NCBI GenBank assembly: GCA_030630935.1
Contig: DAOVMD010000009.1
Location: forward strand, 1-18,869
Source of the DNA: Candidatus Mcinerneyibacteriota bacterium
GTDB taxonomy: Bacteria > AUK180 > JAQVHJ01
Length of the DNA stretch: 18,869 nucleotides
Direction of reading: 5' to 3'
The translations under genes were made by a program, and so were the position numbers. How positions within the stretch are numbered: position 1 is the first letter of the stretch; each line of letters begins with the position of its first letter. Below the pieces are notes generated by a model that made no database searches, had not been told where the DNA came from, and worked only from the letters and a program-made list of their open reading frames with translations. This document shows, in pieces, positions 1 to 18,852 of this stretch.

Positions 1-108
1 ATTTATTTCGTTACCTCCATAAATGCAACTTCGGTGATGGGCTGTTGGCTATACTTTGCCCATATCGGACTTTAACCGATAAGAAATTACAAGCTTTGCT
101 TGGCGCAC
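1..108 (-). mobile_element. Group II intron, 5' end (domain I), truncated by window edge
   Basis: Read on the minus strand from 108 downward, the sequence begins GTGCGCC, a GUGYG-type group II intron 5' boundary. It is followed by the hallmark early domain I string GGTTAAAGTCC (about 77-67) and a GATGGGCTGTTGG-type block (plus strand 37-49) that can pair with the nearby TGCCCATATC. Only about 108 nt of intron are visible. The rest of the ribozyme and any intron-encoded reverse transcriptase/maturase would lie left of base 1. The call rests on recognising the primary-sequence hallmarks, not on a full fold. No protein-coding frame is expected in this part. Confidence 0.72.
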
Positions 109-139
109 TCATCCCGTCAATCCTGTACATCCCTGTAAA
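109..139. repeat. Degenerate cctgta-type repeat forming the intron 5' exon
   Basis: Directly upstream of the intron boundary, the plus strand reads as three short imperfect units: atcccgtca, atcctgtac and atccctgtaa. This resembles the interspersed 'atcctgta' direct repeats found between genes in many bacterial genomes. The intron appears to have inserted into, or been carried with, such a repeat. A T-rich stretch (about 141-171) follows and contains no gene. No coding sequence is seen between here and the promoter at 252. Confidence 0.45.
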
Positions 140-251
140 ATTATTTTTTTTGTTTTTATCTTTTTTTTATTCTATATAATTCTTTTTACTATTTTACCAA
201 CTTTTTTGGAGATGAACCTAAATATATGTCCACATATTGTTTAAAATTCTC

Positions 252-280
252 TTGACTTTATATTTATTAATTGTTATAAT
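252..280 (+). promoter_or_regulatory. Sigma70-type promoter for the glyA operon
   Basis: A TTGACT -35 box (252-257) and a perfect TATAAT -10 box (275-280) are separated by exactly 17 nt. Transcription would start near 287, giving a leader of about 30 nt before the glyA ATG at 319. The leader carries the ribosome binding site AAGGAGG (308-314). No operator or riboswitch fold is visible in so short a leader. Confidence 0.85.
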
Positions 281-318
281 ACTTCTTAATTTGTTATTAT
301 AAATATAAAGGAGGAATT

Positions 319-1590
319 ATGTCAAATTTCGATTCACCTTTAAAAAAATCTGACCCTGATATTTACAAATCCCTTCAGATGGAGACTCAGCGTCAGGCAT
401 ATACACTTGAACTGATTGCATCCGAGAACTTTGTATCTGAAGCAGTATTGGAAGCGATGGGTAGTGTTATGACAAATAAATATGCCGAAGGCTACCCTGG
501 AAAACGTTATTATGGTGGTTGTCATAATGTAGATATAGCCGAGGACCTGGCACGTGAGAGAGCGAAGGAGCTTTTTGGTTGTGAGCATGTAAATGTCCAA
601 CCTCATTCAGGTTCCCAGGCGAACATGGCGGTATATTTCACATTATTAGAACCGCGAGATACCTTTATGGGCCTGAGTTTATCACACGGTGGTCATTTGA
701 CCCATGGTCATCCCATTTCATTTTCAGGAATGTTCTATAAAGTAGAGCATTATACTGTTAGTCAGCAGACAGAACAGATTAATTATGATGATTTATTAAA
801 GCAGGCAAAAGAAGTACAGCCAAAATTAATAATGGCTGGCGCATCTGCGTATCCCCGATATTTAGATTTTAAGAAATTCCGTGAAATTTGTGATGAAGTT
901 GGAGCTTACCTTGTTGTTGACATTGCACATATTGCAGGATTAATTGCAGCCGGTGAGCACCCGTCACCTGTTCCGTTTGCGGATGTTGTTACGACTACTA
1001 CTCATAAAACCTTACGCGGACCAAGGGGTGGAATGATCATGTCCAAGGAACAATTTGCAAAAGGACTTGATAGAGTTACGTTCCCTGGAATCCAAGGCGG
1101 ACCGCTCATGCATGTAATTGCAGCAAAAGCAGTTTGTTTCAAAGAAGCAATGACTGATGAGTTCAAGAATTACCAAAAGCAGATCAGGAAAAATGCCCAG
1201 GTCCTTGCAAAGTCTCTTGAGGAGCAGGGATTCAGGTTGGTTGCCGGTGGAACTGATACACATCTAATCCTTATTGATATGACTCCTAAAGGGATATCAG
1301 GGAAAAAAGCCGAGAAAGCCCTTGAGAAGGCAGGTATCACAACCAATAAAAACACAATTCCATTTGATACAAGGAAACCATTTGTCACGAGCGGCATTAG
1401 AATTGGAACACCTGCAATTACCACAAGGGGAATGAAGGAAGAAGAGATGAAAGTAATTGCCGGTTTTATTTCAAAAGCAATTGATAACTATAAAGAAGGT
1501 GAAAAATTAGATATTATCAAGAAAGAAGTAAAAGAATTTTGTAAAAAATTCCCGTTATATACTAATAGATTGGACCCGGATTTTAATTAA
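319..1590 (+). CDS. glyA: Serine hydroxymethyltransferase
   Basis: This cytosolic PLP enzyme interconverts serine and glycine, loading a one-carbon unit onto tetrahydrofolate. The 423-aa length is normal for bacterial GlyA. Family motifs are present: LIASENF near residue 32, [15 protein letters not shown] (53-67), QPHSGSQAN (94-102), [10 protein letters not shown] (199-208) containing the PLP-contacting Asp201 and His204, and [14 protein letters not shown] (225-238), in which Lys230 should carry the PLP Schiff base. The ATG at 319 is fixed by a strong AAGGAGG four bases upstream. It is the first gene after the promoter. Its stop codon overlaps the acpS start by one base (TAATG), which implies translational coupling. 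Nothing unusual is seen in the protein. Confidence 0.97.
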
Positions 1591-1970
1591 TGGAAATAAT
1601 TGGTATTGGCACAGATATTATAGAGATTAGCAGGATTCAACACTTATTGTTGAATTTTAAAGATAGATTTGTCAATAAAATTTTTCTCCAATCTGAAGAA
1701 GAGTACTGTACTAAAAAGAGATATCCTGAAATTCATTTTGCAGGGAAGTTTGCCGGAAAAGAAGCTGTCATAAAATCTCTTGACAGTTTATTATCTCGAA
1801 TTTCATTTAAAGATATTGAGATCAAGAATAACCCGAATGGAAAACCCGAAGTGTTCCTGACAGATATTTTAGTTCAGACAAATAAACAACTGCAGGATAT
1901 TAATTTTGAAATTAGCATCTCGCATTCTCAGTCAATTGCCAATGCATTTGTGATTTGTTTTAGGAGTTGA
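1590..1970 (+). CDS. acpS: Holo-[acyl-carrier-protein] synthase
   Basis: AcpS transfers 4'-phosphopantetheine from coenzyme A to a serine of acyl carrier protein, activating fatty acid synthesis. At 126 aa it has the usual size. Visible motifs are GIGTDIIEI at the N-terminus with the metal-binding Asp9, FAGKFAGKEAVIK (50-62) with Glu58, a NPNGKPEV segment (81-88) and ISISHSQSIANA (108-119), which matches the conserved ISHS region. The start overlaps the glyA stop by one base. The next gene begins six bases after its stop. Operon membership with glyA does not change the assignment. Confidence 0.93.
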   Translation: MEIIGIGTDIIEISRIQHLLLNFKDRFVNKIFLQSEEEYCTKKRYPEIHFAGKFAGKEAVIKSLDSLLSRISFKDIEIKNNPNGKPEVFLTDILVQTNKQLQDINFEISISHSQSIANAFVICFRS

Positions 1971-1976
1971 GAAGAT

Positions 1977-2336
1977 ATGAAAAAATACTTATTTCTAATT
2001 TTAATTTTGTCTTTCCTTTTTACACTAAACAGCTGTACTAATTCGAATAAATATATAAAGGAAACGACTAATTTTGGGATTAAATCTGCAAAGAAAGGAT
2101 ATTGGAAAGAAGCAAAGTTCAGATGGGAGAAGCTTGTTAAAGAGGATCCTGATGACTTTATTGCATTAAATAACCTTGCAGTCTGCTATGAAGTTGAAGA
2201 AGATTTTGAGACCGCAAAGGAATTTTATTCCCGAGCTCTGGAGCTGCAGCCGAAAAATAAATATATCAAGATCAACCTGGAGAAGGTTGAAGCTCTGCTC
2301 TTTGCAAAAGAACAAGATAAAAAACAAACTGAATGA
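1977..2336 (+). CDS. Small TPR-containing lipoprotein
   Basis: This 119-aa protein has a basic, hydrophobic signal sequence ending in TLNSC, which places the lipidated cysteine at residue 20 (signal peptidase II type). The remainder forms about two tetratricopeptide repeats: a helix pair with GYWKEAKFRWEKLVKEDPDD (42-61) and a second with ALNNLAVCYEVEEDFETAKEFYSRALELQPKN (63-94). TPRs act as protein-protein docking surfaces, so a periplasmic scaffold or partner role is inferred. Its neighbours are a second lipoprotein, which overlaps it by an ATGA junction, and then the large barrel protease, suggesting one envelope module. There is no close named homologue that I can recognise. An AGGAG-like site lies about 10 bases before the ATG. 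Confidence 0.8.
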   Translation: MKKYLFLILILSFLFTLNSCTNSNKYIKETTNFGIKSAKKGYWKEAKFRWEKLVKEDPDDFIALNNLAVCYEVEEDFETAKEFYSRALELQPKNKYIKINLEKVEALLFAKEQDKKQTE

Positions 2337-3061
2337 TTATGAAAAAAAGAATAACACTATTGATATTAGTCTTAAGTTTTCTGATTTTTTATTCAGGTTC
2401 ATGTATTCATACTGAATTAGTTTATATCACAATTACAGATGACCCAAAAATTAAGTTAGACCCAGATGCAACTATTGTAGTTCATAATTTCTGGTTAAAT
2501 GCAAAGGATGACCCTACTCTCACATTCAGACCTGAGAAAGAGATTTCGCAGAAATTCCGGGATGTGCTTGAGCAGGAAGAAACTTTAAAAGTTCTTCCAA
2601 GGAAATCCTATAAACGGCTTAATAAACTTTTTCTTACTGCGGTGGAAGAGAAATCTCTTTCAATCTTGTCGTACATAGAAAAGCAGGACCTTAGTTGGGT
2701 CGAAGTTACAAAAGATGAACCTTGCGATTATTTATTACTTGGTGAGACTGCATTTGAGGTCGTAGACGGTTCAGGTTATGAATACAGACGAATCTATGAC
2801 CCTTTCTCAAGGACATATAAATATAAAGAAGTCTTTGTGAAACAAAAAATCTTTAATATTAAAGTTACAATTATTCTAATTGATGTTAAAAAGAACAAAA
2901 TGATTTATGAAGATATTTATAATGATTCCAGGATTGAAGCAGGAGATGTGGAATCAAATCTTACTCAATTTCTTTGGTTAAGCGAATTTTCAGTTGAAAG
3001 ATTCATCAGTTCATTTACTCCTGAAATTGAAAAGCAATATAGATACTTATTAGGTAGGTAG
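2333..3061 (+). CDS. Predicted lipoprotein, possibly CsgG/LpoB-like fold
   Basis: The protein has 242 aa, with a lysine/arginine-rich start, a hydrophobic core and an SGSC box that would lipidate Cys24. The box is not ideal at position -3. The mature part alternates strands and helices. Its middle, YLLLGETAFEVVDG (about 134-147) followed later by IKVTIILIDVKKNKMIYED, resembles the pattern of CsgG/LpoB/TolB-N-like periplasmic lipoproteins, where a 'what is the activity of this factor' strand precedes 'liDv.t.k'. This is a fold-level impression, not a firm assignment. The start could be the ATG at 2333, giving an ATGA overlap with the upstream stop, or the ATG at 2339. The next gene starts two bases after the stop, so it is probably co-translated with the barrel protease. 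Confidence 0.7.
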   Translation: MIMKKRITLLILVLSFLIFYSGSCIHTELVYITITDDPKIKLDPDATIVVHNFWLNAKDDPTLTFRPEKEISQKFRDVLEQEETLKVLPRKSYKRLNKLFLTAVEEKSLSILSYIEKQDLSWVEVTKDEPCDYLLLGETAFEVVDGSGYEYRRIYDPFSRTYKYKEVFVKQKIFNIKVTIILIDVKKNKMIYEDIYNDSRIEAGDVESNLTQFLWLSEFSVERFISSFTPEIEKQYRYLLGR

Positions 3062-3063
3062 CA

Positions 3064-5844
3064 ATGAAAAAGTTAATAATTTCTCTTACAGTTTTTTTAT
3101 TAATCACAACCTCAGTCCTTGGGTTCGGCAAGAATAAAGTCAGGTACGACCGATTTGATTGGAAGGTAAAAGAGACCAAGCATTTTGATATTTATTATTA
3201 CCCTGAATTTGAACATCGAATTAAACGGATTGCGAGTGTTTTTGAAAGTAGTTATGATTATCTTTCAAAGCGTTATGATTTTAAACTTTCATTTCGCCCT
3301 CCAATTATACTCTATAAGAATCACAGACATTTTGAACAGACTAATATTATGCCAGGGTTTATTCCGGGGAATGTCGGCGGGTTTGCGGAAATAATTAAGA
3401 AGCGATTAGTCATTCCCATAAATGGTTCAAGGTATAATTTGGAAACACTGATTGTACATGAATTAAATCACCTTTTTCAATTTGATTATTTCTACCAGAA
3501 TAAAATCCAATTGATCGGAGCAGTTCCTATGTATATTATGGAAGGATTCTCCCTAAGCTATTCATTCGATTGGGATATGGAAGGAAGAATGGTGTTAAGG
3601 GATGCATTTCTTAATAATACTTTCTACGACCTGCAAAGGATGAGAAATTTTTATGTTAACCCGAACGTTTACTTATGCTATAAGGAATCGCAAGCTTTTG
3701 TTGACTTCTTAATTGAAGAGTTTGGTGAAGAAAAGGTTAAGTTATTTCTACGAAACATAAGACGGAATCCAAAGATAAACTTCGACAGAACATTAAAGAT
3801 TTCTTTTGGTTATAACGAAAAGGAATTATCTAATCTCTGGGTCAATAAGATGAAGAAGAAATTCTGGCCCATGATTAAAGAGAAGGAGGTCCCGGAGATT
3901 GCTTATGGCAGACCAATCGGGTTCCATAGTGAGTATTATGTATCTTTCAAACCCGTTTACTTCCCGTCAGGGGATTTCTTTGCATTCATGACCTCAAAGA
4001 ACCAACAACTCGATATCTATATTCAGGGGGCTGATAATAAGGAAACGATTAAAAGATTAACTGAACAGGATACGCTTTTATACGAATACATTATTACAGA
4101 CGGCAATGCAATTTCCGTCTCACCCGATGGCGATTTAATTGCGTTATTTGTCAGAGATAACGAAGCGGATAAATTACTTATTATAAATGTTGTATCGGGA
4201 GAGAAAAGGAAGATTAAGTTTCGAGGTTATGAAGCACTCTCTTCTCCGTCCTGGGGTTCCGATTCAAAAACAATTGCGTTCATTGCCGATAAAACCGGGC
4301 AGTCAGATGTCTGGACATTTAATATTGAAACAGAGATATTTGAGAAGTGGACAAAGGATGTTGCCCAGGATTACACTCCCCGATTAACAGAAGACATGAA
4401 GAAAATATATTACGTATCTGAAATCATGGGAGTCAGAAAAATCTTTTCAATTGAGAAGGGAAAACCCAATTCAAAGAAGCCGGTTACATTTGGTTCATGG
4501 GACGATATCCAGCCTTTCCTTTCACAAGACCAAAAAAAGATAATTTATATCTCCGGGAAAGTTGATGAGATCCCGAATATTTTTGAATTGGATCTTGAGA
4601 CAAATGAAATTGTACAATTAACCAATACTCTCGGCGGGATATTTGATGTCTCCCTTTCACCTGATAATAAACAAGTAATCTTTTCCTGTTATTATAATGG
4701 ACGCTTTAATATTTACCAGATGGAAAGAGAGAATCTCCCTGAATTAAGTAAGTTCAAGAATGACGGTACAACCAAGATTAAAGAGTTCAAATATCTCACA
4801 AAAAAACACGCAAAACTATCAAAACCGAAAAAAGTAAAGTTTAGGTTAGAACCGTCTTATGTCTCTTCAAGCCTGGCATTCTCAACAACAGGAGAGCTGA
4901 AAAATTATACCGAGATTGGATTAAGCGATATTATGGAAGATCATATGTTCATATTATCCATCAACTCAATTCATCAATTCTCTGATTCATATCTTGTTTA
5001 TATTTTTAAGAAATACCGAACGACATTTGGCGCAAGCGTATTCAATTATGGAAATTATTATTTCTTCCCTTCACTTAATGAAGTGGGAGCACATCGAAAT
5101 TATGGGCTAAGTTTATTCGTGAGCTATCCTTTAAATAAATATAATCGAATTGAGTTATACTCTACTTACGCTCAGCTTTATTGGGATGATGTTTTCAGAA
5201 CCTATTTCGGTTTTCAAAAATTTGAACATGAATTATCTCTTAGTCTCAGGTTTGTTAGAGATTCTGCAAGGTGGGCACAGTTTGAACCAATATCAGGCTC
5301 GAGATATGCACTCGGAGTAAAACAATACTTGACCCCGAAGGAATCATTTAAAATGTTAACCGAGTATCATGTTGATTTCAGAAAGTATTTCAGGCTTTCA
5401 AGGAGATCATCATACGCATTGAGAGTATACGGTAGCTGGTCAACCGGACCGGATAAATACCTGTACTTCTTTGGCGGTGGGAACTACTTGAGAGGTTTTA
5501 GATTTAATGAGTTCTACGGTACCCGAATGTTTGTTCTGAATAATGAATTCCGAATCCCGTTCATTGATATTATAAGAATTTTTGGGTTCCTGGATTTATA
5601 CTATATTCGCGGCGTGCTATACTGGGATATTGCAAGCGCCTGGTCAGATGATACAAATTGGCAGCCTATGAAAAAGGACGAGAACGGAAATTGGAGGTTT
5701 GAAGATATTCATAGTTCAGTAGGTTTCGGGTTAAGATTGAGAGGTGGATATTTTGATTTGAATTTCTACTTCTCCAAGAAAATGGATTTCTATACAATTT
5801 ACCCGAATACAATTTACCAGTTTTATATCGGTTCAAATTTTTAA
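3064..5844 (+). CDS. Gluzincin metalloprotease / TolB-like propeller / Omp85-like barrel fusion
   Basis: This 926-aa exported protein has three parts. After a signal peptide (1-20), residues 25-280 resemble the MA-like gluzincin peptidases: zinc motif HELNH (132-136), a downstream MEGFSLSYS with likely third ligand Glu160, and a YKESQAFVDFLIEEFGEE helix. Residues about 285-580 hold repeated PD40/WD40-like blades such as SPDGDLIALF, GSDSKTIAFI and SPDNKQVIFS, as in the TolB beta-propeller. From about 610 to the end is an outer-membrane barrel like the bacterial surface antigen/Omp85 family: an FEPISGSRY segment near 738, a YLRGFRFNEFYGTRMF segment near 807 that corresponds to the Omp85 LRGY region, and a terminal phenylalanine typical of a barrel beta-signal. 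Both zinc ligands are intact, so proteolytic activity is plausible. Substrate is unknown. No POTRA repeats are seen. It sits directly after two lipoproteins. Confidence 0.85.
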   Translation: MKKLIISLTVFLLITTSVLGFGKNKVRYDRFDWKVKETKHFDIYYYPEFEHRIKRIASVFESSYDYLSKRYDFKLSFRPPIILYKNHRHFEQTNIMPGFIPGNVGGFAEIIKKRLVIPINGSRYNLETLIVHELNHLFQFDYFYQNKIQLIGAVPMYIMEGFSLSYSFDWDMEGRMVLRDAFLNNTFYDLQRMRNFYVNPNVYLCYKESQAFVDFLIEEFGEEKVKLFLRNIRRNPKINFDRTLKISFGYNEKELSNLWVNKMKKKFWPMIKEKEVPEIAYGRPIGFHSEYYVSFKPVYFPSGDFFAFMTSKNQQLDIYIQGADNKETIKRLTEQDTLLYEYIITDGNAISVSPDGDLIALFVRDNEADKLLIINVVSGEKRKIKFRGYEALSSPSWGSDSKTIAFIADKTGQSDVWTFNIETEIFEKWTKDVAQDYTPRLTEDMKKIYYVSEIMGVRKIFSIEKGKPNSKKPVTFGSWDDIQPFLSQDQKKIIYISGKVDEIPNIFELDLETNEIVQLTNTLGGIFDVSLSPDNKQVIFSCYYNGRFNIYQMERENLPELSKFKNDGTTKIKEFKYLTKKHAKLSKPKKVKFRLEPSYVSSSLAFSTTGELKNYTEIGLSDIMEDHMFILSINSIHQFSDSYLVYIFKKYRTTFGASVFNYGNYYFFPSLNEVGAHRNYGLSLFVSYPLNKYNRIELYSTYAQLYWDDVFRTYFGFQKFEHELSLSLRFVRDSARWAQFEPISGSRYALGVKQYLTPKESFKMLTEYHVDFRKYFRLSRRSSYALRVYGSWSTGPDKYLYFFGGGNYLRGFRFNEFYGTRMFVLNNEFRIPFIDIIRIFGFLDLYYIRGVLYWDIASAWSDDTNWQPMKKDENGNWRFEDIHSSVGFGLRLRGGYFDLNFYFSKKMDFYTIYPNTIYQFYIGSNF

Positions 5845-5855
5845 AGGATGGAGAT

Positions 5856-6134
5856 ATGGAAAAGAAAGAATATGTAATTACATTCATGGGTACAGGTGAT
5901 AATTCTACATTTTTAAATATTAACCGCTTAATAAAAAATGAAGGATTTGAAATTCTTACCAGTGAATATAAAGTATCACAAGATTCCATTGCAGGATATT
6001 TTCTTGTACCCGGGAATCCTAATGATAATTCAAAGACCATTGAAGACAGATTAAAAAAGATCATTCCTCAATTTGAGAATGTGAAATTTATTATTCAGAA
6101 TGCTAAGTTATTTGAATATGTTTATTCAATCTAA
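5856..6134 (+). CDS. ACT-like small protein (UPF0237-like)
   Basis: The 92-aa protein is predicted to form one ACT-type beta-alpha-beta unit. YVITFMGTGDNSTFLNINRL at the start resembles the ACT opening strand and loop of UPF0237 and SerB N-domains, where the usual loop is GkDrpGI, and a GYFLVPG strand follows near residues 47-53. The characteristic aspartate-glycine loop is altered, so ligand binding cannot be assumed. Support comes mainly from context: in many genomes a UPF0237 ACT protein lies just before a UPF0210 gene, as it does here with a 17-nt gap. ACT domains usually sense small ligands, often amino acids. A good ribosome binding site (AAGGATGGAG) precedes the ATG. Confidence 0.6.
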   Translation: MEKKEYVITFMGTGDNSTFLNINRLIKNEGFEILTSEYKVSQDSIAGYFLVPGNPNDNSKTIEDRLKKIIPQFENVKFIIQNAKLFEYVYSI

Positions 6135-6151
6135 ACCATGAGAGAATAGAA

Positions 6152-7516
6152 ATGTCATTTAAATTAAAAGATATTTTAGAAACGTTTTACATGTTTAAAC
6201 TTGAAAATGTTGATATAAGAACTACTACCCTCGGGATTAACCTGAAAGATTGCGCCGATTCGGATATAAATAAAATGGCCGATAAAATTTTTAATAAAAT
6301 TAAGTTATATGCGGGTAATCTTTGCAGAGTCGTTGATGAAGTCTCGGAAGAGTACAAAATACCCATTGCACATAAAAGGGTTTCAATAACCCCAGTTGCA
6401 AATATTATAGCGAATTGCAGTTTGAATAATGTAGTTAAGATTGCAGAAGCACTTGATGCAGCAGCTGAAGAGTGTAACCTTGATTATATCGGTGGATTCT
6501 CTGCGTACTGCCAGAAAGGAATTTCTTGTGGTGAGAAGATCCTGATTGATTCGATACCTGAAGCTTTATCCACGACAAAAAGAGTTTGTGGTTCGGTAAA
6601 TGTTGCCAGCACCAAAGCCGGGATAAATATCTCTGCAATTTACAGGATGGCAGAAGTTATTAAAGACCTGGCATTCAGGACTGCAGACCAGGATGGAATA
6701 GGTGCGGCAAAGCTGGTCATATTTGCAAATGCCCCGGAAGATAATCCCTTTATGGCAGGAGCATTCCATGGGGTCAGTGAACCTGAAACAACTATAAATG
6801 TCGGAATAAGCGGGCCTGGGTTTGTCAGAGCTGCAATTGAAAACTGCGGACCTGATGCAGATTTATTGGAAATATTCAATACCATTAAAATTGCTTCATA
6901 TAAAATCACCAGGATAGGGCAACTGGTTCTCGAAGAAGTTTCACGGAGAATGAACGTGGTAGAAGGAATAATTGACCTTTCCTTAGCCCCTACCCCTGCA
7001 AAGGGAGATAGCATTGCTGATATAATTAAAGCGATCGGAGTTGAAGATGTCGGAGCGCACGGGTCAACTTTTGCACTTGCTCTCTTAAATGATGCAGTTA
7101 AAAAAGGCGGAGCATTCGCATCAACATTTTGCGGCGGATTAAGCGGAGCTTTCGTACCCGTACTTGAAGATACCGGCTTGGGTAATGCGGTTCAGTCCGG
7201 AGCTCTGACACTAAGTAAACTGGAAGCAATGACTTCTGTATGTTCAATTGGACTCGATATGATAGCTGTGCCGGGAGATATTTCAATTGAAAAAATTGCA
7301 GGAATTTTAGCTGATGAGAGTGCAATCGGGGTTATTAACAGAAAAACTACTTCTGTCAGAATGATTCCGGTTCCTAATAAAAAAGCGGGGGATACAGTTC
7401 ATTTTGGCGGGCTGCTCGGTGGCGGACCAATCATGGAAATCAGTAAATTTAAAACCGGAAAAATCTTTCAAAAAGGCGGAAGAATCCCTGCACCATTAAA
7501 TAGTCTTACTAATTAA
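6152..7516 (+). CDS. UPF0210 (PFL-like, DUF711) family protein
   Basis: This 454-aa cytosolic protein matches the UPF0210 family, often annotated as 'PFL family protein' because its fold is related to glycyl-radical enzymes. Recognised landmarks are IRTTTLGINL near residue 22, GGFSAYCQKG (about 114-123), the VCGSVNVASTKAGIN segment, PFMAGAFHGVSEPE (about 199-212), SLAPTPAKGDSIADII (about 276-291), FCGGLSGAFVPV (about 328-339) and a glycine-rich C-terminus with HFGGLLGGGPIMEI. The biochemical function of this family is not established, so no reaction is given. Pairing with an ACT-like protein suggests ligand-regulated activity. Only a weak GAGAGA site precedes the ATG. Confidence 0.88.
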   Translation: MSFKLKDILETFYMFKLENVDIRTTTLGINLKDCADSDINKMADKIFNKIKLYAGNLCRVVDEVSEEYKIPIAHKRVSITPVANIIANCSLNNVVKIAEALDAAAEECNLDYIGGFSAYCQKGISCGEKILIDSIPEALSTTKRVCGSVNVASTKAGINISAIYRMAEVIKDLAFRTADQDGIGAAKLVIFANAPEDNPFMAGAFHGVSEPETTINVGISGPGFVRAAIENCGPDADLLEIFNTIKIASYKITRIGQLVLEEVSRRMNVVEGIIDLSLAPTPAKGDSIADIIKAIGVEDVGAHGSTFALALLNDAVKKGGAFASTFCGGLSGAFVPVLEDTGLGNAVQSGALTLSKLEAMTSVCSIGLDMIAVPGDISIEKIAGILADESAIGVINRKTTSVRMIPVPNKKAGDTVHFGGLLGGGPIMEISKFKTGKIFQKGGRIPAPLNSLTN

Positions 7517-7519
7517 AAA

Positions 7520-8635
7520 ATGAAAATTCTTCAAAAATACATAATTACTGATTTATTTGCACCATCCCTTTTCGGAATATCATTATTTACCTTTATGATG
7601 TTGTTAAGTAAACTTAGAGATTTCATTGAATTAATTATTAACAAAGGTGTTCCGGCGGAAAAAGTTCTTTTCCTATTAATCTTGATCTTACCTGCAATTC
7701 TTGCAATTACAATCCCAATGGGTTTCTTATTAGGGATTTTAATGACTTACGGGAGATTTGCTGAAGATAACGAGATCACCGCAATGAAAGCTTCCGGAAT
7801 AAGTGTTTTAAAAATGTTAACTCCGATTATCGCAGTAGCTCTCGTGTTAAGTGCTTTCATGGTGTATTTTAATGATACTATCCTACCAAAATCAAATTAC
7901 CTTTATGCAAAAAATCTATTTGATATAATATCTAATAGAGCTCATATTGTAATTAAAGAAAAAACATTTATCGAAACTTTCGACGGAATTACTCTGTATT
8001 GTGATTATGTCGAACCAAAAACAAATATAATGAAAAAAGTAAAAATAAATATCCGCGAAAAAAATAGAAGGGAACCAATCTTTATTTTTGCTGATTCTGG
8101 ACTACTCGTTTCAAATGAAGATGAAATGGAATTAATTTTATATCTCTATAACGGGTCTATTCATTTCTTCAGCACTAGTGATGTTCGATATGATGCTGGA
8201 ACATATTATTTTGGGACGTTTGAAAAATTAGAAAAAAGTATCGATATGAATAAAGGTCTGGAAAAGGCGCGGAACTTTAAGAAAGGACCGCGTATGCTTA
8301 CTTCGGGAGAATTAAAACAACGAATTGAAAAAGAAAAATTTGAACCTCTCAGAAGAAATTTATTAATTGAACTGAATAAAAAATTCTCTATTCCGATCGC
8401 CTGCTTAATCTTTGCTCTATTAGGTGCACCTCTTGGAATTTTACTCAAGCACGGTAGTAAACCTGTAGCGATTGCAGTTAGTATTGGAATCATATTTCTA
8501 TATTACATCATTTTATATTTAGGAAATAGCTTAGGTTTGACGGGAAAGATATCGCCATTCCTTGCAATGTGGCTCCCTAATATTGTTATGGGGATTGTTG
8601 CATTTTTTTTATTTAGAAAAGCAATAAAAACATGA
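7520..8635 (+). CDS. LptF/LptG (YjgP/YjgQ) family permease
   Basis: This 371-aa inner-membrane protein has the LptF/LptG layout: three N-terminal membrane segments (about 8-35, 50-80, 97-120), a long periplasmic region rich in beta strands (about 120-270), and three C-terminal segments (about 290-308, 312-330, 340-367). Family hallmarks include ILAITIPMGFLLGILMTYGRF near 60-80, an EITAMKASGIS coupling-helix segment (about 85-95) and FALLGAPLGI near 298. LptF and LptG together form the membrane part of the lipopolysaccharide exporter with LptB. Only one such gene is present, so its partner must be elsewhere or it may work as a homodimer. The sequence alone does not decide between F and G. Its stop overlaps the next gene by ATGA. 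Confidence 0.88.
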   Translation: MKILQKYIITDLFAPSLFGISLFTFMMLLSKLRDFIELIINKGVPAEKVLFLLILILPAILAITIPMGFLLGILMTYGRFAEDNEITAMKASGISVLKMLTPIIAVALVLSAFMVYFNDTILPKSNYLYAKNLFDIISNRAHIVIKEKTFIETFDGITLYCDYVEPKTNIMKKVKINIREKNRREPIFIFADSGLLVSNEDEMELILYLYNGSIHFFSTSDVRYDAGTYYFGTFEKLEKSIDMNKGLEKARNFKKGPRMLTSGELKQRIEKEKFEPLRRNLLIELNKKFSIPIACLIFALLGAPLGILLKHGSKPVAIAVSIGIIFLYYIILYLGNSLGLTGKISPFLAMWLPNIVMGIVAFFLFRKAIKT

Positions 8636-9651
8636 TGGAAAAGAATAAAGTAATCTCAGTTGAATGCATTTCAAAATTTTATCCGACAGAAGTTGGGTTA
8701 ATGCGAATTTTTAAGAAAGCTCGTTTGATAAGAGCTCTGAAAAGTGTAAGCTTCAACGTCTATGAAGAAGAAGTATTTGGAATTCTCGGTCCAAACGGGG
8801 CTGGAAAAACTACATTAATAAAGATATTAGCAACCCTGGTTCTTGCTGATACAGGGAAAACTACAATGTTTGGTTATGATGTAAAGCAAAACCCTTATGA
8901 TATAAAAAATAAAATTGGAATCATTACAGGTGATGAGCGCGGATTCTATTGGAGATTAACCGGAAGGGAGAACTTGATGTTTTTCGGGACTCTATCTAAC
9001 CTATCAAAAACTGAACTAAAGAAAAAAATCCCTTATCTTCTTGATTTTGTTAAACTAACCAAATCAAAAGATATTATGTTCAAGGAATATTCATCAGGAA
9101 TGAAAACCCGTCTGCAGTTAGCACGTGCTCTTTTAACAAAACCCGAAATGCTGCTTCTGGATGAACCGACAAAGTCACTCGATATTGAAGGGAAAGAAAA
9201 ATTTAAACAATTATTAAAAGAACCAATCTTAGGGAAAAAACCAACCGTTATTCTTGCAACTCATTCACTTGAAGAAGCCGAAGCTGTTTGTGACAGGTTC
9301 ATGATATTGAAAAAGGGTGAGAAAGTAATTGAAGGAGATATTGAAGATATAAGAAATTTCTTGAAGCTAAGTAACCATATCACAATATCCTTTTCTGCAA
9401 GGAATACAGATGATTTAAAATTGATTATTAAAGATATTAAAAATATCAAATCCCTGACTTCAATTGAAGAAAAAATTATCAAAAATACTGCTGACCTGAA
9501 TATCAGATATAAAGAAAATCCAGTAGATTTTTTGACTACTCTAATTGCCTTCTGTAAGAATGTGGAGGGATGTGAAGTTTTATCTCTAAATGTGAATTCA
9601 AAAGACTTGAAAGAAATAATGCACCTTATTCTGGATATAAAGAAGGTATAG
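8632..9651 (+). CDS. ABC transporter ATP-binding protein (ABC-2 exporter type)
   Basis: This 339-aa cytosolic ATPase has Walker A GPNGAGKT (53-60), signature SSGMK (154-158), Walker B LLLDEP (174-179) and H-loop His211 in ATHS. The Q-loop region reads IITGDERGFYWRLTGREN, without a standard glutamine, a form familiar in ABC-2 type exporters (NodI-like). The C-terminal 120 residues form an accessory domain of unknown role. The paired permease starts three bases after its stop, so together they make a drug, polysaccharide or lipid exporter of unknown substrate. Despite following an LptF/G gene it is not LptB, which is shorter and lacks this C-terminal extension. The start may be the ATG at 8632 (overlapping the lptF stop) or at 8635. 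Confidence 0.9.
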   Translation: MMEKNKVISVECISKFYPTEVGLMRIFKKARLIRALKSVSFNVYEEEVFGILGPNGAGKTTLIKILATLVLADTGKTTMFGYDVKQNPYDIKNKIGIITGDERGFYWRLTGRENLMFFGTLSNLSKTELKKKIPYLLDFVKLTKSKDIMFKEYSSGMKTRLQLARALLTKPEMLLLDEPTKSLDIEGKEKFKQLLKEPILGKKPTVILATHSLEEAEAVCDRFMILKKGEKVIEGDIEDIRNFLKLSNHITISFSARNTDDLKLIIKDIKNIKSLTSIEEKIIKNTADLNIRYKENPVDFLTTLIAFCKNVEGCEVLSLNVNSKDLKEIMHLILDIKKV

Positions 9652-9654
9652 ATA

Positions 9655-10470
9655 ATGATAAAAATTATTCGAAAAGTTTTTATATTCTTCTGGAAAGACC
9701 TGAAAAATTTATTCTCGTATAAGTTAGGTTCGGTCTTATATGCATTCAGTATTTTTATCCCGTTAATTATATTTTACTTCTTATCTCAACTTGTGGGGGA
9801 TGAAGCCCTGCCATATATCAGTAAGTATAGCTTAGAATATTTTCCATTTGTCCTTGTAGGCCTTGCATTCTCAAACTACTTTATATTCGGGATAAACTCA
9901 CTATCCGCATCAATTCGAAATGAACAGATGATGGGAACATTGGAAGCTATGCTCTCTACTCCAACTTCTATACCTACTATTATATTCTCATCTGTAATAT
10001 TCGATTTTGTCTTAACTTCATTACAGATATTCTTATATATCCTATTTGGAAAATATATATTTAATGCTGATATACATTTCCATAAAATTATTCCCATGAT
10101 GCTGATGCTCTTCTTTACTATAACGTCATTCGGGACCTTCGGCATAATATCAGCAAGCTTTATTATTGTCTTTAAAAGAGGTAATCCCCTGGCTCTATTG
10201 ATTACGCAATCTTCAATATTATTCGGCGGGGTTTATTTTCCATTTGAAATGCTGCCCGGATGGGTGCAATTATTCTCAAAATGCCTCCCAATGACATATT
10301 CCTTAAGAGGTATGAGACTACTACTATTACAAAATGCTCCCTTCAGCGAAATCCTACCCGACCTCCTGTTCTTGGTTATCTTTACCATGATATTCCTCCC
10401 AATCTCAATATATATCTTTAAATTCTCAGTCAATAAGGCAAAAAAAGACGGAACCCTGATCCAATATTAG
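9655..10470 (+). CDS. ABC-2 type transporter permease
   Basis: This 271-aa integral membrane protein has about six hydrophobic segments (near 22-45, 62-85, 106-130, 140-172, 178-200 and 238-262). Between the fifth and sixth lies GGVYFPFEMLPGWVQLFSKCLPMTYSLRGMRLLL, the conserved ABC-2 membrane signature around the PxxxLP turn and LP-TY-L-R motif. An IRNEQMMGTLEAMLSTP segment in the first half is also typical of the family. It is the translocation partner of the ATPase encoded immediately upstream. An AAGAAGG site lies about 8 nt before the ATG. It is the last gene of the plus-strand operon. Substrate is unknown. Confidence 0.9.
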   Translation: MIKIIRKVFIFFWKDLKNLFSYKLGSVLYAFSIFIPLIIFYFLSQLVGDEALPYISKYSLEYFPFVLVGLAFSNYFIFGINSLSASIRNEQMMGTLEAMLSTPTSIPTIIFSSVIFDFVLTSLQIFLYILFGKYIFNADIHFHKIIPMMLMLFFTITSFGTFGIISASFIIVFKRGNPLALLITQSSILFGGVYFPFEMLPGWVQLFSKCLPMTYSLRGMRLLLLQNAPFSEILPDLLFLVIFTMIFLPISIYIFKFSVNKAKKDGTLIQY

Positions 10471-10499
10471 GGATTTATGATTGATAATTATTAATTGAT

Positions 10500-10522
10500 A
10501 AACCGATTTTTCTATCGTTTTT
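10500..10522 (+). terminator. Weak hairpin after the plus-strand operon
   Basis: Thirty bases past the permease stop, AAACCGAT (10500-10507) faces ATCGTTTT (10514-10521). This gives seven pairs with one mismatch, and further Ts follow. It could be a weak intrinsic terminator for the ten-gene operon. The stem is AT-rich and short, so the call is tentative. Confidence 0.35.
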
Positions 10523-10532
10523 GAATCAGCAA

Positions 10533-10605
10533 ATGTTATTTGTCATGGAGTTTATCCAGAGCGTAGCGAAGGAACTAAGGAACGAAGTGAATGACGCGGC
10601 AATCT
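10533..10605 (+). repeat. Repeat module copy A (ATTTGTCAT...CGCGGCAATCT)
   Basis: It begins with ATGTTATTTGTCAT (10533-10546), which is the perfect 14-base inverse of 11239-11252, and ends with CGCGGCAATCT (10595-10605), the inverse of 11172-11182. The interior differs from the other copies, so only the two ends are conserved. GC content is visibly higher than in flanking genes. Short reading frames that cross it are not credible as genes. Confidence 0.65.
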
Positions 10606-10625
10606 GGGAGCAAAGCTCCCTTTTT
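10606..10625 (+). terminator. Intrinsic terminator-like hairpin
   Basis: GGGAGC (606-611 of the 10-kb block) and GCTCCC (615-620) form a six-pair GC-rich stem around an AAA loop, followed directly by TTTTT. The structure faces plus-strand transcription arriving from the ABC permease and is the best terminator candidate in this intergenic region. It lies between repeat copies A and C, so it may have arrived with the repeats. Confidence 0.55.
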
Positions 10626-10644
10626 AAAAACGTCATATGCGGCG

Positions 10645-10676
10645 CACAGAACCCTAACGAAGTGTGTGGTTCTGTG
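10645..10676. repeat. Nine-pair hairpin (CACAGAACC / GGTTCTGTG)
   Basis: CACAGAACC (10645-10653) and GGTTCTGTG (10668-10676) are perfect inverse complements separated by 14 bases. No T-run follows on either strand, so it is not an obvious terminator. It sits between repeat modules A and C. Confidence 0.5.
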
Positions 10677-10744
10677 TCATTGTCCCGACCCTGCGGGTAC
10701 GGGATTCCTTCACTATGTTCAGTCACGAGTAGAGCGCGGCAATC
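10676..10744 (+). repeat. Repeat module copy C (GTCATTGTCCCG...CGCGGCAATC)
   Basis: It starts with GTCATTGTCCCG (10676-10687), identical to the inverse of 11232-11243, and ends with CGCGGCAATC (10735-10744), identical to the end of copy A at 10595-10604. Its orientation is the same as A and opposite to B. An internal palindrome around CCCGACCCTGCGGGTACGGG (10684-10703) can fold. Confidence 0.6.
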
Positions 10745-10821
10745 CTATTGGGCAGCGATTGCTGCGTAAGTAAAAATGAATAATGAACAATGAAGAACTA
10801 TCTGCATTATATATTACAATG

Positions 10822-10849
10822 CAGTAGGGGCTTCCGACCGGACGCCCTA
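10822..10849 (+). repeat. GC-rich palindromic repeat, copy 1
   Basis: CAGTAGGGGC, then TTCCGACCGGACGCCCT. The second half folds back on the first (GGGCxTCC against GGACGCCC around GACC). The inverse of bases 10993-11019 matches it over 27 positions with one difference. A seven-pair hairpin (CTGCATT 10802-10808 / AATGCAG 10818-10824) overlaps its left end. Confidence 0.65.
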
Positions 10850-10925
10850 ATCGAAAGAACTTAATCCTCCCAAATGATTATAATGAAAATAATAAATTTT
10901 GAAATATAAATTCTAATACAAAAGA

Positions 10926-10942
10926 ATTGTTTGTCAAACAAT
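10926..10942. repeat. Seven-pair AT-rich hairpin
   Basis: ATTGTTT (10926-10932) and AAACAAT (10936-10942) are exact inverse complements with a three-base loop. It lies midway between the two GC-rich palindromes, in an AT-rich stretch without genes. Confidence 0.4.
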
Positions 10943-10990
10943 ATCTAGCATAATATTTTTAAATATTTACGGGATACTTGTTTCATACAA

Positions 10991-11019
10991 TAAGGGCGTC
11001 CGGTCGGACGCCCCTACTG
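10991..11019 (-). repeat. GC-rich palindromic repeat, copy 2 (inverted)
   Basis: This copy is the inverse of the one at 10822-10849, with one mismatch over 27 positions. It is itself palindromic (GGGCGTCC / GGACGCCC around GGTC). The two copies enclose about 140 AT-rich bases, like the ends of a small non-autonomous element. No transposase or coding frame lies between them. Confidence 0.65.
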
Positions 11020-11104
11020 ATTTTTACTAATGTCTTTTTGAGATTATAAATAAAGTCATTTTTTAACCATCCCTTACAAGTTTCGTAAAAGTCCATGTTA
11101 AAAA

Positions 11105-11143
11105 TTTTTATTTTTCTTTTGTTTTTTTGTTTTTTTTATTTTT
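11105..11143. other. T-rich tract
   Basis: This is an almost unbroken run of T with occasional A, C or G on the plus strand. It sits between the palindrome pair and repeat copy B. No hairpin directly precedes it, so it is not a standard terminator. A similar T-rich tract follows the cctgta repeat near 141-171. Confidence 0.5.
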
Positions 11144-11171
11144 CATCCCACCCATGTTTCTTACTTCAAAG

Positions 11172-11252
11172 AGATTGCCGCGGTTTGCTTTAGCGCGTGG
11201 CTGGAGTGGAACGGAAGTCTTCCCGACGCGGCGGGACAATGACAAATAACAT
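11172..11252 (-). repeat. Repeat module copy B (inverted)
   Basis: Read on the minus strand it begins ATGTTATTTGTCATTGTCCCG and ends CGCGGCAATCT. It therefore shares its outer 14 bases with copy A, the next block (GTCATTGTCCCG) with copy C, and its inner end with both. It lies 15 bases past the stop of the last gene of the minus-strand operon. Confidence 0.65.
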
Positions 11253-11267
11253 CTACTCGATCAGCAT

Positions 11268-11702
11268 CTATCTTGTGTCGCTATCTTCTATTTTACTCAT
11301 TATTATGTTATATGATTCTGAGTGTCGGAAGCTTCCAACTGTGAAAAAATTAGCAGGATAGAAACTGAGTTTCTTTCCGTATTTTGTTTCACCTTGAAAG
11401 TTAATTGTAATTATATGCGGGTTACTCCAAACCACTTCTTTGACTTCAGAAATTTGAGTAATCGGGATAATTGTTTCAAAACCGGATTCTGTAATGAATA
11501 AATAGTTATCATCAATTTCAATTTTGTATCCTTTAATTGCAAATCCGAAATAAAATACTATTCCTGAAGCAATTATCCAGATCATTATCATTACTATATC
11601 AAAGAATGCAATAAAAATTACTATTGATAATACTATCCAAATGATTGCAAAAATTTTAAAAAATCTTGCAACACCCGGTGATGATACAATTTTTCTTTCC
11701 AT
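11268..11702 (-). CDS. Two-TM membrane protein with PH-like C-terminal domain
   Basis: This 144-aa protein starts with a short cytosolic segment and then a membrane hairpin (about residues 14-54, two helices rich in I, V, F and W). The soluble tail of about 90 residues has alternating strands, with YKIEIDDNYLFITESGFETIIPITQISEVKEV. This is the pattern of bacterial PH-like (bPH) domains, where 'gy.i..d.l.i......IPl..I..v' recurs. Function is unknown. It is the last gene of the minus-strand operon, 95 nt after the lipoprotein and separated from it by a strong hairpin, so its expression may be lower or independent. Only a weak GAGAAAG site precedes the ATG. Confidence 0.7.
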   Translation of the reverse strand: MERKIVSSPGVARFFKIFAIIWIVLSIVIFIAFFDIVMIMIWIIASGIVFYFGFAIKGYKIEIDDNYLFITESGFETIIPITQISEVKEVVWSNPHIITINFQGETKYGKKLSFYPANFFTVGSFRHSESYNIIMSKIEDSDTR

Positions 11703-11725
11703 ATTACTTTCTCGACATTAACATT

Positions 11726-11753
11726 ACAGGGGTATCTTAAAAGACACCCCTGT
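11726..11753 (-). other. Intercistronic hairpin (possible attenuator)
   Basis: ACAGGGGT (11726-11733) and ACCCCTGT (11746-11753) form eight perfect pairs, and a short inner stem (TCT/AGA) can extend them past a mismatch. It lies between the lipoprotein stop and the next ATG on the minus strand. No T-run follows in either direction. Partial attenuation, mRNA 3'-end protection or a repeat are all possible. Confidence 0.5.
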
Positions 11754-11797
11754 AAATAAAATCTCAAATCATAAAACTAAGGATTTAGATATCTTCT

Positions 11798-12295
11798 TTA
11801 TTTCTTTCCTTGCCATCTCATGTTATCACCCAATTTCCAACCCTTAGGGCACTTCAGGCAATCATCGAGTTTCAACTTATACTCAACATTATTGGATTTA
11901 ATCGTGACAAAAATATCAGTCTCTTCCCAACCTTCTTTCGTATTAATTTTATAATCCACATTAACAATTTCATAATTCAGGTTATCGACTCCATCTTTTA
12001 GCGCTGCTACCCTTACTTCCTCTAAGCTTGAGATCATTTCGGTAAGGTATTCCGTTTTAAATTCCTCTCTAAACTTAGCTTCTCTTTCCGGGGGCATCTT
12101 CACTAATGGTAAAAGGAAATCCAGATCTTTTTCATTAAGGAGACATTTCTTATAAAGATCCTGGTTATTTAACAATACAGCTTTCACCACTGTTGCTGCG
12201 AGATTCTCAGGTGTATCAATCTTCGCTTTTGAACCACAACTAAGAGCTACAAATAAAACTACAAAAACCAATCCAACGATTAAAAGTCTCTTCAT
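11798..12295 (-). CDS. Predicted lipoprotein of unknown function
   Basis: This 165-aa exported protein has a KR-hydrophobic signal ending in VALSC, so the mature protein would begin at lipidated Cys20. The mature part begins KAKIDTPENLAATVVKAVLLNNQDLYKKCLLNEKDL, a helical 'kalk.gD...a..l.......' opening as in DUF4878-like or NTF2-like lipoproteins, and ends with strands around YEIVNVDYKI and DIFVTIKSNNVEYKLKL. The fold suggestion is inference and the role is unknown. A strong GGAGGAAAC site sits directly before the ATG. It follows dapB by 28 nt. Confidence 0.8.
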   Translation of the reverse strand: MKRLLIVGLVFVVLFVALSCGSKAKIDTPENLAATVVKAVLLNNQDLYKKCLLNEKDLDFLLPLVKMPPEREAKFREEFKTEYLTEMISSLEEVRVAALKDGVDNLNYEIVNVDYKINTKEGWEETDIFVTIKSNNVEYKLKLDDCLKCPKGWKLGDNMRWQGKK

Positions 12296-12323
12296 GTTTC
12301 CTCCTTTTTTGGATTAAAATTTA

Positions 12324-13100
12324 TTAAATCTTTATATTATCTAAACCTAAAACATCTGCCATCGTATAGAGTCCGGGTTTCTTTTTCACCAGGAACTTTG
12401 CTGCTTTAATTGCGCCAAATACAAAAGTATCCCGTGATGTCGCCTTATGAACAAGTTCTAATCTCTCAGTCCCTCCAAAATACATTACAGAATGTTCTCC
12501 TACCGTATTCCCTCCTCTCAAAGCAAATATCCCAAGTTCATTTTTCTTTCTGTCTCCGACATGCCCTTCCCTGCCTGTAACCAAAATATCCTTCAACTCC
12601 TTGTTCTTTTCCTTTGCAATGATCTCACCCAATTTCATTGCTGTTCCTGAAGGGGCGTCCTTTTTATGATGATGATGAATCTCCATAATTTCAATTTCGA
12701 AATCCTTCTTCAAAATCGAAGTTGCAATTTTGGTAAGACTAAATAAAAGATTGACTCCTAAACTCATGTTCGGACTTTGAAGGATAGGAATATATTCAGA
12801 AAATTTATTAATCTTTTTCATTGCATGATCATCCAGACCCGTAGTCCCGATAACAATGGGTTTTGAAGCTTTTACACATTCATCTAAAACCTTTACCGTA
12901 AGTTCTGGTGATGAGAAATCTATTATAATATCTCCTGATTTTACAATCTCTTCCGGCTCAGTAAATACTTCAACCCCATCAAAAACTCCACGTGTTTGAT
13001 CAATCCCGCCAATTGTCTCCAGTTTTTTATCAAGATTGATCAGGACTTGTAACCTCTTTCCCATCCGACCTAAAGCCCCTGATACTACAACTTTTATCAT
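12324..13100 (-). CDS. dapB: 4-hydroxy-tetrahydrodipicolinate reductase
   Basis: DapB reduces 4-hydroxy-tetrahydrodipicolinate to tetrahydrodipicolinate using NAD(P)H, the second step of the diaminopimelate/lysine branch after DapA. The 258-aa length is normal. Motifs are VSGALGRMGKRL (6-17, the dinucleotide loop), DFSSPE (61-66), IGTTGL (84-89) and the catalytic HHxxKxDAPSGTA motif at 142-154, in which Lys146 is the proton donor. Here the motif contains four histidines in a row, a variation at non-critical positions. A late RGGNTVGEH segment (195-203) is also conserved. It starts 13 nt after dapA. Confidence 0.97.
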   Translation of the reverse strand: MIKVVVSGALGRMGKRLQVLINLDKKLETIGGIDQTRGVFDGVEVFTEPEEIVKSGDIIIDFSSPELTVKVLDECVKASKPIVIGTTGLDDHAMKKINKFSEYIPILQSPNMSLGVNLLFSLTKIATSILKKDFEIEIMEIHHHHKKDAPSGTAMKLGEIIAKEKNKELKDILVTGREGHVGDRKKNELGIFALRGGNTVGEHSVMYFGGTERLELVHKATSRDTFVFGAIKAAKFLVKKKPGLYTMADVLGLDNIKI

Positions 13101-13113
13101 TTGATGAGCCCCG

Positions 13114-13989
13114 CTATTTAATTAGGTTGTATTCTTTCAACACAACTTTTAACTTCTCTAAATTCTCCGGGGTCATTTCACATAATGGTAATTTAAATTC
13201 CGTATCTAACTTTCCCATTAACCCAAGTGAAGTTTTTACGGGGATCGGGTTGGTTTCAATGAACATTGCACTATGAAGGTCATAAATTTCATTATGAATT
13301 TTTCTAGCTGCTTCTAAATTTCCTGACTTAAATTCTGTAAATAATTGATGCATCTTCCCGGGTATAATATTTGCTGATACTGAAATCACGCCCTTCCCGC
13401 CTAACGAAAGGAATGGTAAGAATGTGAAGTCGTCTCCGGATAAAAGGTCAAAATCCTTTGAGCATAATTTAAAAATCTCAGTCGCTTGTTTCATTGAACC
13501 GGTCGCTTCCTTTATACCTACTATACTTTTTATCTTTGAAAGTCTTGCAACGGTTTCAGGATTAATTGAAATTCCTGTTCGTCCAGGAACATTATAAATT
13601 ATAAGTGGAAGAGGAACTCGTTTTGCAATATACGTAAAATGCTTAAACATCCCTTCCTGCGTTGGCTTGTTATAATATGGCGTAATAACTAACAACGCAT
13701 CCACCCCTGCGTCACGTGCGATCTGTGAAAGCTTTAATGTCGATTTTGTATCATTTGTACCTGTCCCTGCAATTATGGAAATTCGACCTTTCGCAGCTTC
13801 AACACCTAACTTAAATAATCTGCCTTTCTCAGTTTCGGTTAATGTTGCAGATTCACCTGTTGTCCCTGAAAGTAAGATTCCATCTGTCCCATTCGATATC
13901 TGGAACTCAATTAAATTAAGTAGCGCTGATTCATCCAGCTTGCCATTTTTAAAAGGGGTAACTAACGCAACTATAGTTCCTTCAAACAT
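13114..13989 (-). CDS. dapA: 4-hydroxy-tetrahydrodipicolinate synthase
   Basis: DapA condenses pyruvate with aspartate semialdehyde to give 4-hydroxy-tetrahydrodipicolinate, the committed step to diaminopimelate for peptidoglycan and to lysine. At 291 aa it is a typical cytosolic TIM barrel. Visible motifs are LSGTTGESATL (40-50), TPYYNKPTQEG (103-113), YNVPGRTG (132-139, Tyr132 and Arg137 near the active site) and GIKEATG (158-164), where Lys160 would form the Schiff base. Its ATG overlaps the permease stop by eight bases, so the two are translationally coupled. A GGAGGT site lies inside the permease end. Confidence 0.97.
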   Translation of the reverse strand: MFEGTIVALVTPFKNGKLDESALLNLIEFQISNGTDGILLSGTTGESATLTETEKGRLFKLGVEAAKGRISIIAGTGTNDTKSTLKLSQIARDAGVDALLVITPYYNKPTQEGMFKHFTYIAKRVPLPLIIYNVPGRTGISINPETVARLSKIKSIVGIKEATGSMKQATEIFKLCSKDFDLLSGDDFTFLPFLSLGGKGVISVSANIIPGKMHQLFTEFKSGNLEAARKIHNEIYDLHSAMFIETNPIPVKTSLGLMGKLDTEFKLPLCEMTPENLEKLKVVLKEYNLIK

Positions 13990-15049: not shown

Positions 15050-15064
15050 TAAATATTTGCATTC

Positions 15065-17098: not shown

Positions 17099-17110
17099 AA
17101 TTTCCTCCTA
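17096..17110 (-). promoter_or_regulatory. Ribosome binding site and TTG start of ftsH
   Basis: The TAGGAGG motif (17110-17104 on the minus strand) is followed by AAATT and the TTG start codon (17098-17096). The first three bases of the motif are the tilS stop codon TAG. Ribosomes finishing tilS would therefore be placed at the ftsH start, coupling the two genes. Confidence 0.85.
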
Positions 17111-18517: not shown

Positions 18518-18527
18518 ATTTATTAAG

Positions 18528-18604
18528 TGGTAGCGGAGCAGGGACTCGAACCCCGGACAACACGGGTATGAACCGTGCGCTCTAACCACCTGAGCTACTC
18601 CGCC
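18528..18604 (-). tRNA. tRNA-Met (elongator, CAU)
   Basis: Seventy-seven bases form a full cloverleaf. The acceptor GGCGGAG pairs with CTCCGCT (last pair G1-U72), the D-stem is GCTC/GAGC, and the anticodon stem CACGG/CCGTG closes the loop TTCATAC. The T arm is CGGGG-TTCGAGT-CCCTG, and CCA is encoded. The CAT anticodon (plus strand 18568-18570 reads atg) could in principle be the tRNA-Ile substrate of TilS. The GGCGGAG acceptor lacks the C4-G69/C5-G68 pairs that E. coli TilS prefers and fits elongator tRNA-Met better. It ends 10 nt before tilS. Confidence 0.9.
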
Positions 18605-18624
18605 ACACGGCCATTTTGAGAATT

Positions 18625-18701
<77 letters not shown>

Positions 18702-18715
18702 TCAATTAATTTGAA

Positions 18716-18744
18716 ATTATAACATAAAAACATATTATTGTCAA
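18716..18744 (-). promoter_or_regulatory. Perfect-consensus sigma70 promoter for tRNA-fMet/tRNA-Met/tilS/ftsH operon
   Basis: On the minus strand TTGACA (18744-18739) and TATAAT (18721-18716) are separated by exactly 17 bases, so both hexamers and the spacer are the consensus. The start point would fall near 18709, about eight bases before the mature tRNA-fMet end. Such a strong promoter suits tRNA synthesis. Confidence 0.9.
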
Positions 18745-18791
18745 GTTTTTATTTGATAGAAATTTATTCATTTTTTTATTAATATGGAGTG

Positions 18792-18820
18792 CATCAGGTA
18801 AATCGGTGATTTTCCTGATG
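18792..18820. repeat. Long imperfect hairpin upstream of the tRNA promoter
   Basis: CATCAGG (18792-18798) pairs with CCTGATG (18814-18820). Past a T-T mismatch, AAATC (18800-18804) pairs with GATTT (18808-18812) around a GGT loop, for a total of 12 pairs. No T-run of terminator quality follows. It could be a repeat-family palindrome, a regulator site or a terminator for a gene right of the window. The rest of 18745-18869 shows no gene. Confidence 0.5.
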
Positions 18821-18852
18821 TAGAGTACTTTTAATTTTTATGATTTCATTAT

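Follow-up and report, generated by a model that had tools for sequence, protein, structure and literature searches.

A POTRA-less Omp85 protein with a zinc protease site, a TolB-like propeller and conserved lipoprotein gene partners: a candidate second outer-membrane machine beside BamA

What might an outer-membrane barrel do when it carries a zinc protease site and a beta-propeller on the same chain and is encoded directly behind two lipoprotein genes? The question is raised by an 18,869-nucleotide stretch of DNA from Candidatus Mcinerneyibacteriota bacterium (assembly GCA_030630935.1, contig DAOVMD010000009.1, positions 1 to 18,869), here called the window. Three contiguous genes of the window, all on the + strand, encode a TPR lipoprotein (P1), a putative lipoprotein (P2) and a large protein with a C-terminal Omp85 barrel (P3), and the start of P2 overlaps the end of P1 by 4 bp. 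A preliminary description of the locus had given these coordinates and this gene order exactly. We found that P3 belongs to a large family with a near-invariant zinc site and that the three genes form a conserved module in one clade of it. We tentatively read the trio as a dedicated Omp85 machine that exists in addition to BamA, faces the periplasm and subjects outer-membrane clients to proteolytic quality control or maturation. The features are as follows.

1977..2336, + strand: P1, a 119-amino-acid TPR lipoprotein with lipobox LNSC (Cys20), a short TPR solenoid
2333..3061, + strand: P2, a 242-amino-acid putative lipoprotein with an alpha-beta fold like TolB-N, FlgT-M, PelC and CsgG
3064..5844, + strand: P3, 926 amino acids, with signal peptide, gluzincin peptidase, TolB-like propeller and Omp85 barrel
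3151..3882, + strand: peptidase MA domain of P3, residues ~30-273 (PF13485 over residues 104-263; helical domain in the model)
3457..3471, + strand: HELNH zinc-binding motif of P3, residues 132-136, from alignment conservation
3541..3543, + strand: third zinc ligand of P3, E160, at gluzincin spacing, invariant in 66 homologues
3931..4761, + strand: TolB-like beta-propeller of P3, residues ~290-566, from structure match and TIGR02800
4849..5841, + strand: 16-stranded Omp85 barrel of P3, residues 596-926, with LRGF motif (R810, G811) and C-terminal Phe

P3 scored 42.7 bits with Peptidase_MA_2 (PF13485), for which the cut-off is 32.4, and the peptidase domain was mostly helical in the AlphaFold2 model. 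The residues H132, E133, H136 and E160 make up an HExxH motif with its downstream glutamate ligand and were invariant in an alignment of 66 homologue rows. An intact gluzincin site (HELNH, Glu160) had been reported in the preliminary description, which named a disrupted site beforehand as a refuting result; the site is intact. When the set was widened to 103 rows, 101 kept all four ligands. One of the two rows without the site (L085_7937) is a kinase-like sequence and not an apparent family member, which leaves 101 of 102 genuine members with the site. The other (L139_2374, at L139:2374-5214) is a genuine P3 of the trio-bearing clade that has lost HExxH with P1 and P2 still upstream, a natural inactive variant. 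Since L139 alone has lost the site, we rejected the idea that the family consists of pseudo-enzymes. Retention of the ligands over such great divergence suggests that the activity of the putative protease is under selection. The mature N-terminus (FGKNK) was also near invariant in the 103-row set.

The AlphaFold2 model of P3, built from 66 sequences, had a predicted local distance difference test score (pLDDT) of 88.8 and a predicted template modelling score (pTM) of 0.87. Besides the peptidase, the sequence matched PD40 in Pfam and TolB and Omp85-family models in NCBIfam, and PF01103 (Omp85) exceeded its cut-off in the genome search. The propeller superposed on that of TolB with a VIA Z of 28.3 over 247 residues (root-mean-square deviation, rmsd, 2.3), and the match to the TolB model TIGR02800 (2.4e-24) scored 86 bits, well under the cut-off of 343. 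The modelled barrel has 16 strands at residues 596 to 922 and resembled those of BamA, TamA and Sam50 with Z of 24-27 over about 300 residues; the BamA matches had Z of 25-27, and against Deinococcus radiodurans BamA the VIA Z was 26.9 over 308 residues (rmsd 3.4). The loop-6 RG(F/Y) motif was well kept (R810 in 101/103 rows, G811 in 96/103), as were a C-terminal F, Y or W (100/103), E828 (103/103) and the near-invariant D771 and Y775. A TolB-like propeller followed by an Omp85-like barrel without POTRA, as first described, was therefore found in the model, and a barrel expected after residue 610 is present, starting about 14 residues earlier at 596. Propeller and barrel are joined by no more than an extended linker of about 30 residues, so P3 lacks even the single POTRA that has been taken as the least requirement for an Omp85 protein.

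Among the 290 genomes sampled, 92 had P3 (E<=1e-100), frequently as two or three copies. Besides the window's lineage it occurred in Zixibacteria, Calditrichota, KSB1, Ignavibacteria, Bacteroidota and Acidobacteriota, and also in Poribacteria, Latescibacterota, WOR-3, Cloacimonadota and Marinimicrobia. Every sampled member of the window's class carried exactly one P3 together with a separate BamA in which four or five POTRA repeats were recognised. A third Omp85 protein was not found in these genomes; the window's own draft genome held its second Omp85 protein, BamA, as a fragment at a contig end. P3 thus appears to be an addition to the beta-barrel assembly machinery (BAM) and not a replacement for it, and a role as sole BamA was rejected. 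Searches of the class genomes with YfiO (BamD) and PQQ_2 (BamB) returned many generic TPR and propeller matches.

A FastTree phylogeny of 103 P3 proteins gave three large sets, of 25 (support 99, holding the window), 30 (support 99) and 43 members (support 97), and P1 and P2 neighbours were scored by an unfiltered six-frame scan with a strict distance rule. Sulfidibacter corallicola (L132), a cultured species with the P1-P2-P3 trio, was added to the window's set as its 26th member by its neighbours, not by the tree. This clade spans Acidobacteriota, Poribacteria, Latescibacterota, the window's class and others. P1 lay directly upstream of P3 in 26/26 members and P2 did so too in 24 of the 26 (21 by the strict six-frame rule, with L136, L140 and L062 seen separately), while neither gene was found at any of the 78 P3 loci outside the clade. 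Six of the trio loci (L136-L141) had been chosen for having P2 and so are not independent tests; the others were found via P3 alone. P2 itself occurred in 17 of the 290 genomes, directly upstream of P3 in 13, and 16 of the 17 had P3 somewhere (it was absent in G223). In one Acidobacteriota genome (L062) P1 is fused to P2. Within the window's class the order SHMT, AcpS, P1, P2, P3 was found in 5/5 members with upstream sequence, two of them near-duplicates from one genus. A chance string of genes was rejected, given that all 26 clade members, drawn from several phyla, share the order. The conserved neighbourhood that the preliminary description had asked for does exist, and its proposal that the two lipoproteins are partners of P3 is supported by the clade-wide adjacency and the P1-P2 fusion.

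The partners are specific to the clade: TPR and TolB-N-fold proteins accompany P3 in the window's set, and a BamB-like one does so in another. In the set of 30, a PQQ_2 propeller lipoprotein of BamB type (PF13360 down to 1e-49) lay directly downstream of P3 in 22/30, often overlapping the 3' end of P3 by the same 13 bases. Its presence beside P3 in a sister clade links the family to outer-membrane assembly.

P1 exceeded the cut-off for TPR (PF07719, 1.8e-10), and its lipobox cysteine, Cys20, was invariant across 6 homologues. The second gene had also been called a lipoprotein; P2 can be kept as a putative one, as its lipobox, SGSC, is non-canonical and the cysteine is absent from its relatives in Thermoanaerobaculia. 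No relative of P2 was found by Pfam, NCBIfam or Protein Data Bank (PDB) sequence search, the last with a P2 profile, and the window's P2 matched neither PF03783 (CsgG) nor any other Pfam family. Its structure model (pLDDT 82.6) resembled FlgT (VIA Z 12.5), PelC (12.3), the TolB N-domain (10.6) and CsgG (10.1), and LptE as well, with Z across the matched folds from 12.5 to 8.6. The likeness to FlgT-M, PelC, TolB-N, CsgG and LptE is one of predicted fold and is no proof of shared function. Single proteins matching both P1 and P2 models were seen at L142:4193-5458 and L144:4539-5495. The former contains CsgG, TPR and FlgT_C, so a P2-type fold and TPR also occur together elsewhere than beside P3.

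In the reading of the trio as a second Omp85 machine, P3 is an outer-membrane Omp85 protein whose POTRA domains have given way to a zinc protease with a TolB-like propeller. The barrel would sit in the outer membrane and the propeller and protease would probably hang into the periplasm, because the domain order places them where POTRA stands in BamA. P1 and P2 may dock on the propeller and help the protease beside the barrel seam to receive its client polypeptides, namely immature outer-membrane proteins or lipoproteins. Stalled clients would be degraded there, or specific clients trimmed, which would be BepA-type work within a BAM-like scaffold. Lipoproteins of the TPR, TolB-N-fold and BamB-like types belong to the sort that docks, from the periplasmic side, on barrels for outer-membrane assembly. 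Several observations weigh on the other side. Despite its matches to TPR models, P1 had no match to YfiO (PF13525) in the Pfam scan and was rejected as BamD; P2 has no BAM counterpart; and P3, as modelled, is without POTRA, the client-handling domain of BamA. No matching partner lipoprotein was seen beside P3 in the set of 43, and no experiment on any member of the family turned up in the literature. A broader version is possible but rather doubtful: that the family represents a phylum-spanning outer-membrane machine, unrecognised so far, in which a POTRA-less Omp85 barrel with fused active protease and propeller forms a second BAM-like complex for proofreading or maturation, with clade-specific lipoprotein sets.

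The barrel might instead move or insert a narrow set of clients, each cleaved once by a maturation protease, as in pathways for secretion or lipoprotein export. Omp85 barrels are known to translocate or insert proteins (PMC4104836), the zinc site of P3 is intact, and the fold of P2 is common to the export lipoproteins PelC and CsgG and to LptE. However, no conserved client gene adjoins P3 and the flanks beyond the trio differ between lineages, and we consider such a translocon unlikely. Somewhat less likely still is a display of type V kind, in which the barrel would bring the N-terminal protease and propeller of the same chain to the cell surface for feeding or competition, as a surface or released protease, with P1 and P2 as secretion accessories. 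A signal peptide, an enzyme and a C-terminal barrel are indeed on the one P3 chain, and PlpD was long interpreted in this way, but Omp85 topology puts N-terminal domains in the periplasm, the enzyme of PlpD is exclusively periplasmic (PMC11116518), and the partners in two clades (TPR with TolB-N fold; BamB-like) are of periplasmic type.

The preliminary description had proposed that the barrel displays or anchors the protease. Display is the less likely topology, given the PlpD precedent (PMC11116518), and anchoring is kept as a low-ranked rival. In that case the barrel would merely tether a periplasmic, peptide-degrading protease-propeller and have no part in assembly, which would fit a P3 that lacks POTRA and hence any known client-handling domain. 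We think this improbable, as an inert tether has no obvious need of the conserved R810, G811 and E828, which suggest a working barrel. Least probable of all is a Tol-Pal-like envelope link, with the TolB-N-like P2 and the TolB-like propeller of P3 as a split TolB contacting Pal or peptidoglycan. The structural matches to the TolB N-domain (Z 10.6) and propeller (Z 28) would suit it, but P2 is equally close to FlgT, PelC and CsgG, P3 falls far short of the TolB cut-off (86 of 343 bits), and Tol-Pal genes were not seen in the window.

How the outer membrane is built and policed in diderm phyla outside Proteobacteria is poorly known, and published work points to uncharacterised Omp85 subfamilies as open targets. 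A large propeller-Omp85 family with a near-invariant zinc protease site and fixed lipoprotein partners offers a testable complex, and S. corallicola is a cultured host in which the P1-P2-P3 complex could be tested. In the literature searched, which left most subscription journals outside its coverage, we found no outer-membrane protein combining peptidase MA with a propeller, nor the protease site of P3, the lipoprotein modules, the three-clade split or the P1-P2 fusion.

Several neighbouring genes were noted in passing. An ACT-like small protein and then DUF711 (PF05167, 7.5e-169) are encoded at 5856-7516 (+), and the same order follows P3 in a genome of the same family (L036). An LptF/LptG permease (PF03739, 3.5e-83) lies at 7520-8635 (+), three genes after P3, and directly after P3 in L039 (4570-5649); together with the LptE-like fold of P2 this hints at a possible link to lipopolysaccharide transport. 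In the third clade, P3 of Zixibacteria (L048, L110, L067, L070, L072) is often preceded by a gene for about 420 amino acids, MurA-like by eye in L048. At 17108-18733 (-) a listed open reading frame of 541 amino acids, tRNA(Ile)-lysidine synthase-like by eye, starts across two tRNA-Met(CAT) genes (18528-18604 and 18625-18701), so its true start lies downstream of both.

Among known systems, the WD40-Omp85 subfamily named by Heinz and Lithgow in 2014 is closest in architecture, and the P3 family overlaps with it. As described in the main-text passages of that paper, it has a TolB-like propeller directly N-terminal to the Omp85 barrel without POTRA, was compared with a BamA-BamB fusion, and stands among the POTRA-less subfamilies accepted there (PMC4104836). 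With a propeller-Omp85 protein published and P3 in 92/290 genomes, the arrangement is not the unusual one that it had seemed at first. Neither an N-terminal zinc protease nor lipoprotein gene partners are mentioned in those passages (PMC4104836), and the protease site, lipoprotein modules, three-clade split and P1-P2 fusion are what we regard as new within the literature searched. The 'Metallo' (Omp85-metalloprotease) class is defined in the same passages by PF00149 (PMC4104836). PF00149 is Metallophos in Pfam and not the peptidase family of P3 (PF13485). Since Metallophos is a family of phosphoesterases, 'Omp85-metalloprotease' appears to be a wrong label.

P2 shares its modelled fold with CsgG, PelC, FlgT, the TolB N-domain and LptE (Z about 9 to 12.5), whereas in Pfam the window's P2 matches none of these families. 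Like the BAM complex, the P3 system brings together an Omp85 barrel, a propeller (BamB in BAM) and a TPR lipoprotein (BamD in BAM), with a BamB-like neighbour in the sister clade. Unlike it, P3 is without multiple POTRA and has a fused propeller of TolB type and a fused protease, P1 is not YfiO, and the class members encode canonical BamA separately. PlpD, a patatin-Omp85 protein, has a fused enzyme that by experiment stays periplasmic (PMC11116518). Like P3 it carries an enzyme domain N-terminally fused to an Omp85 barrel; the domain is patatin-like and lipolytic and not a protease, there is one POTRA, and there is no propeller. BepA, which also has TPR, resembles P3 in pairing a zinc metallopeptidase with an outer-membrane Omp85 barrel. 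This M48 peptidase acts on BAM, where it either promotes or degrades LptD (PMC8423444). The P3 system differs from it in the peptidase family, in joining barrel and protease in one chain, and in having its TPR in a separate lipoprotein, P1.

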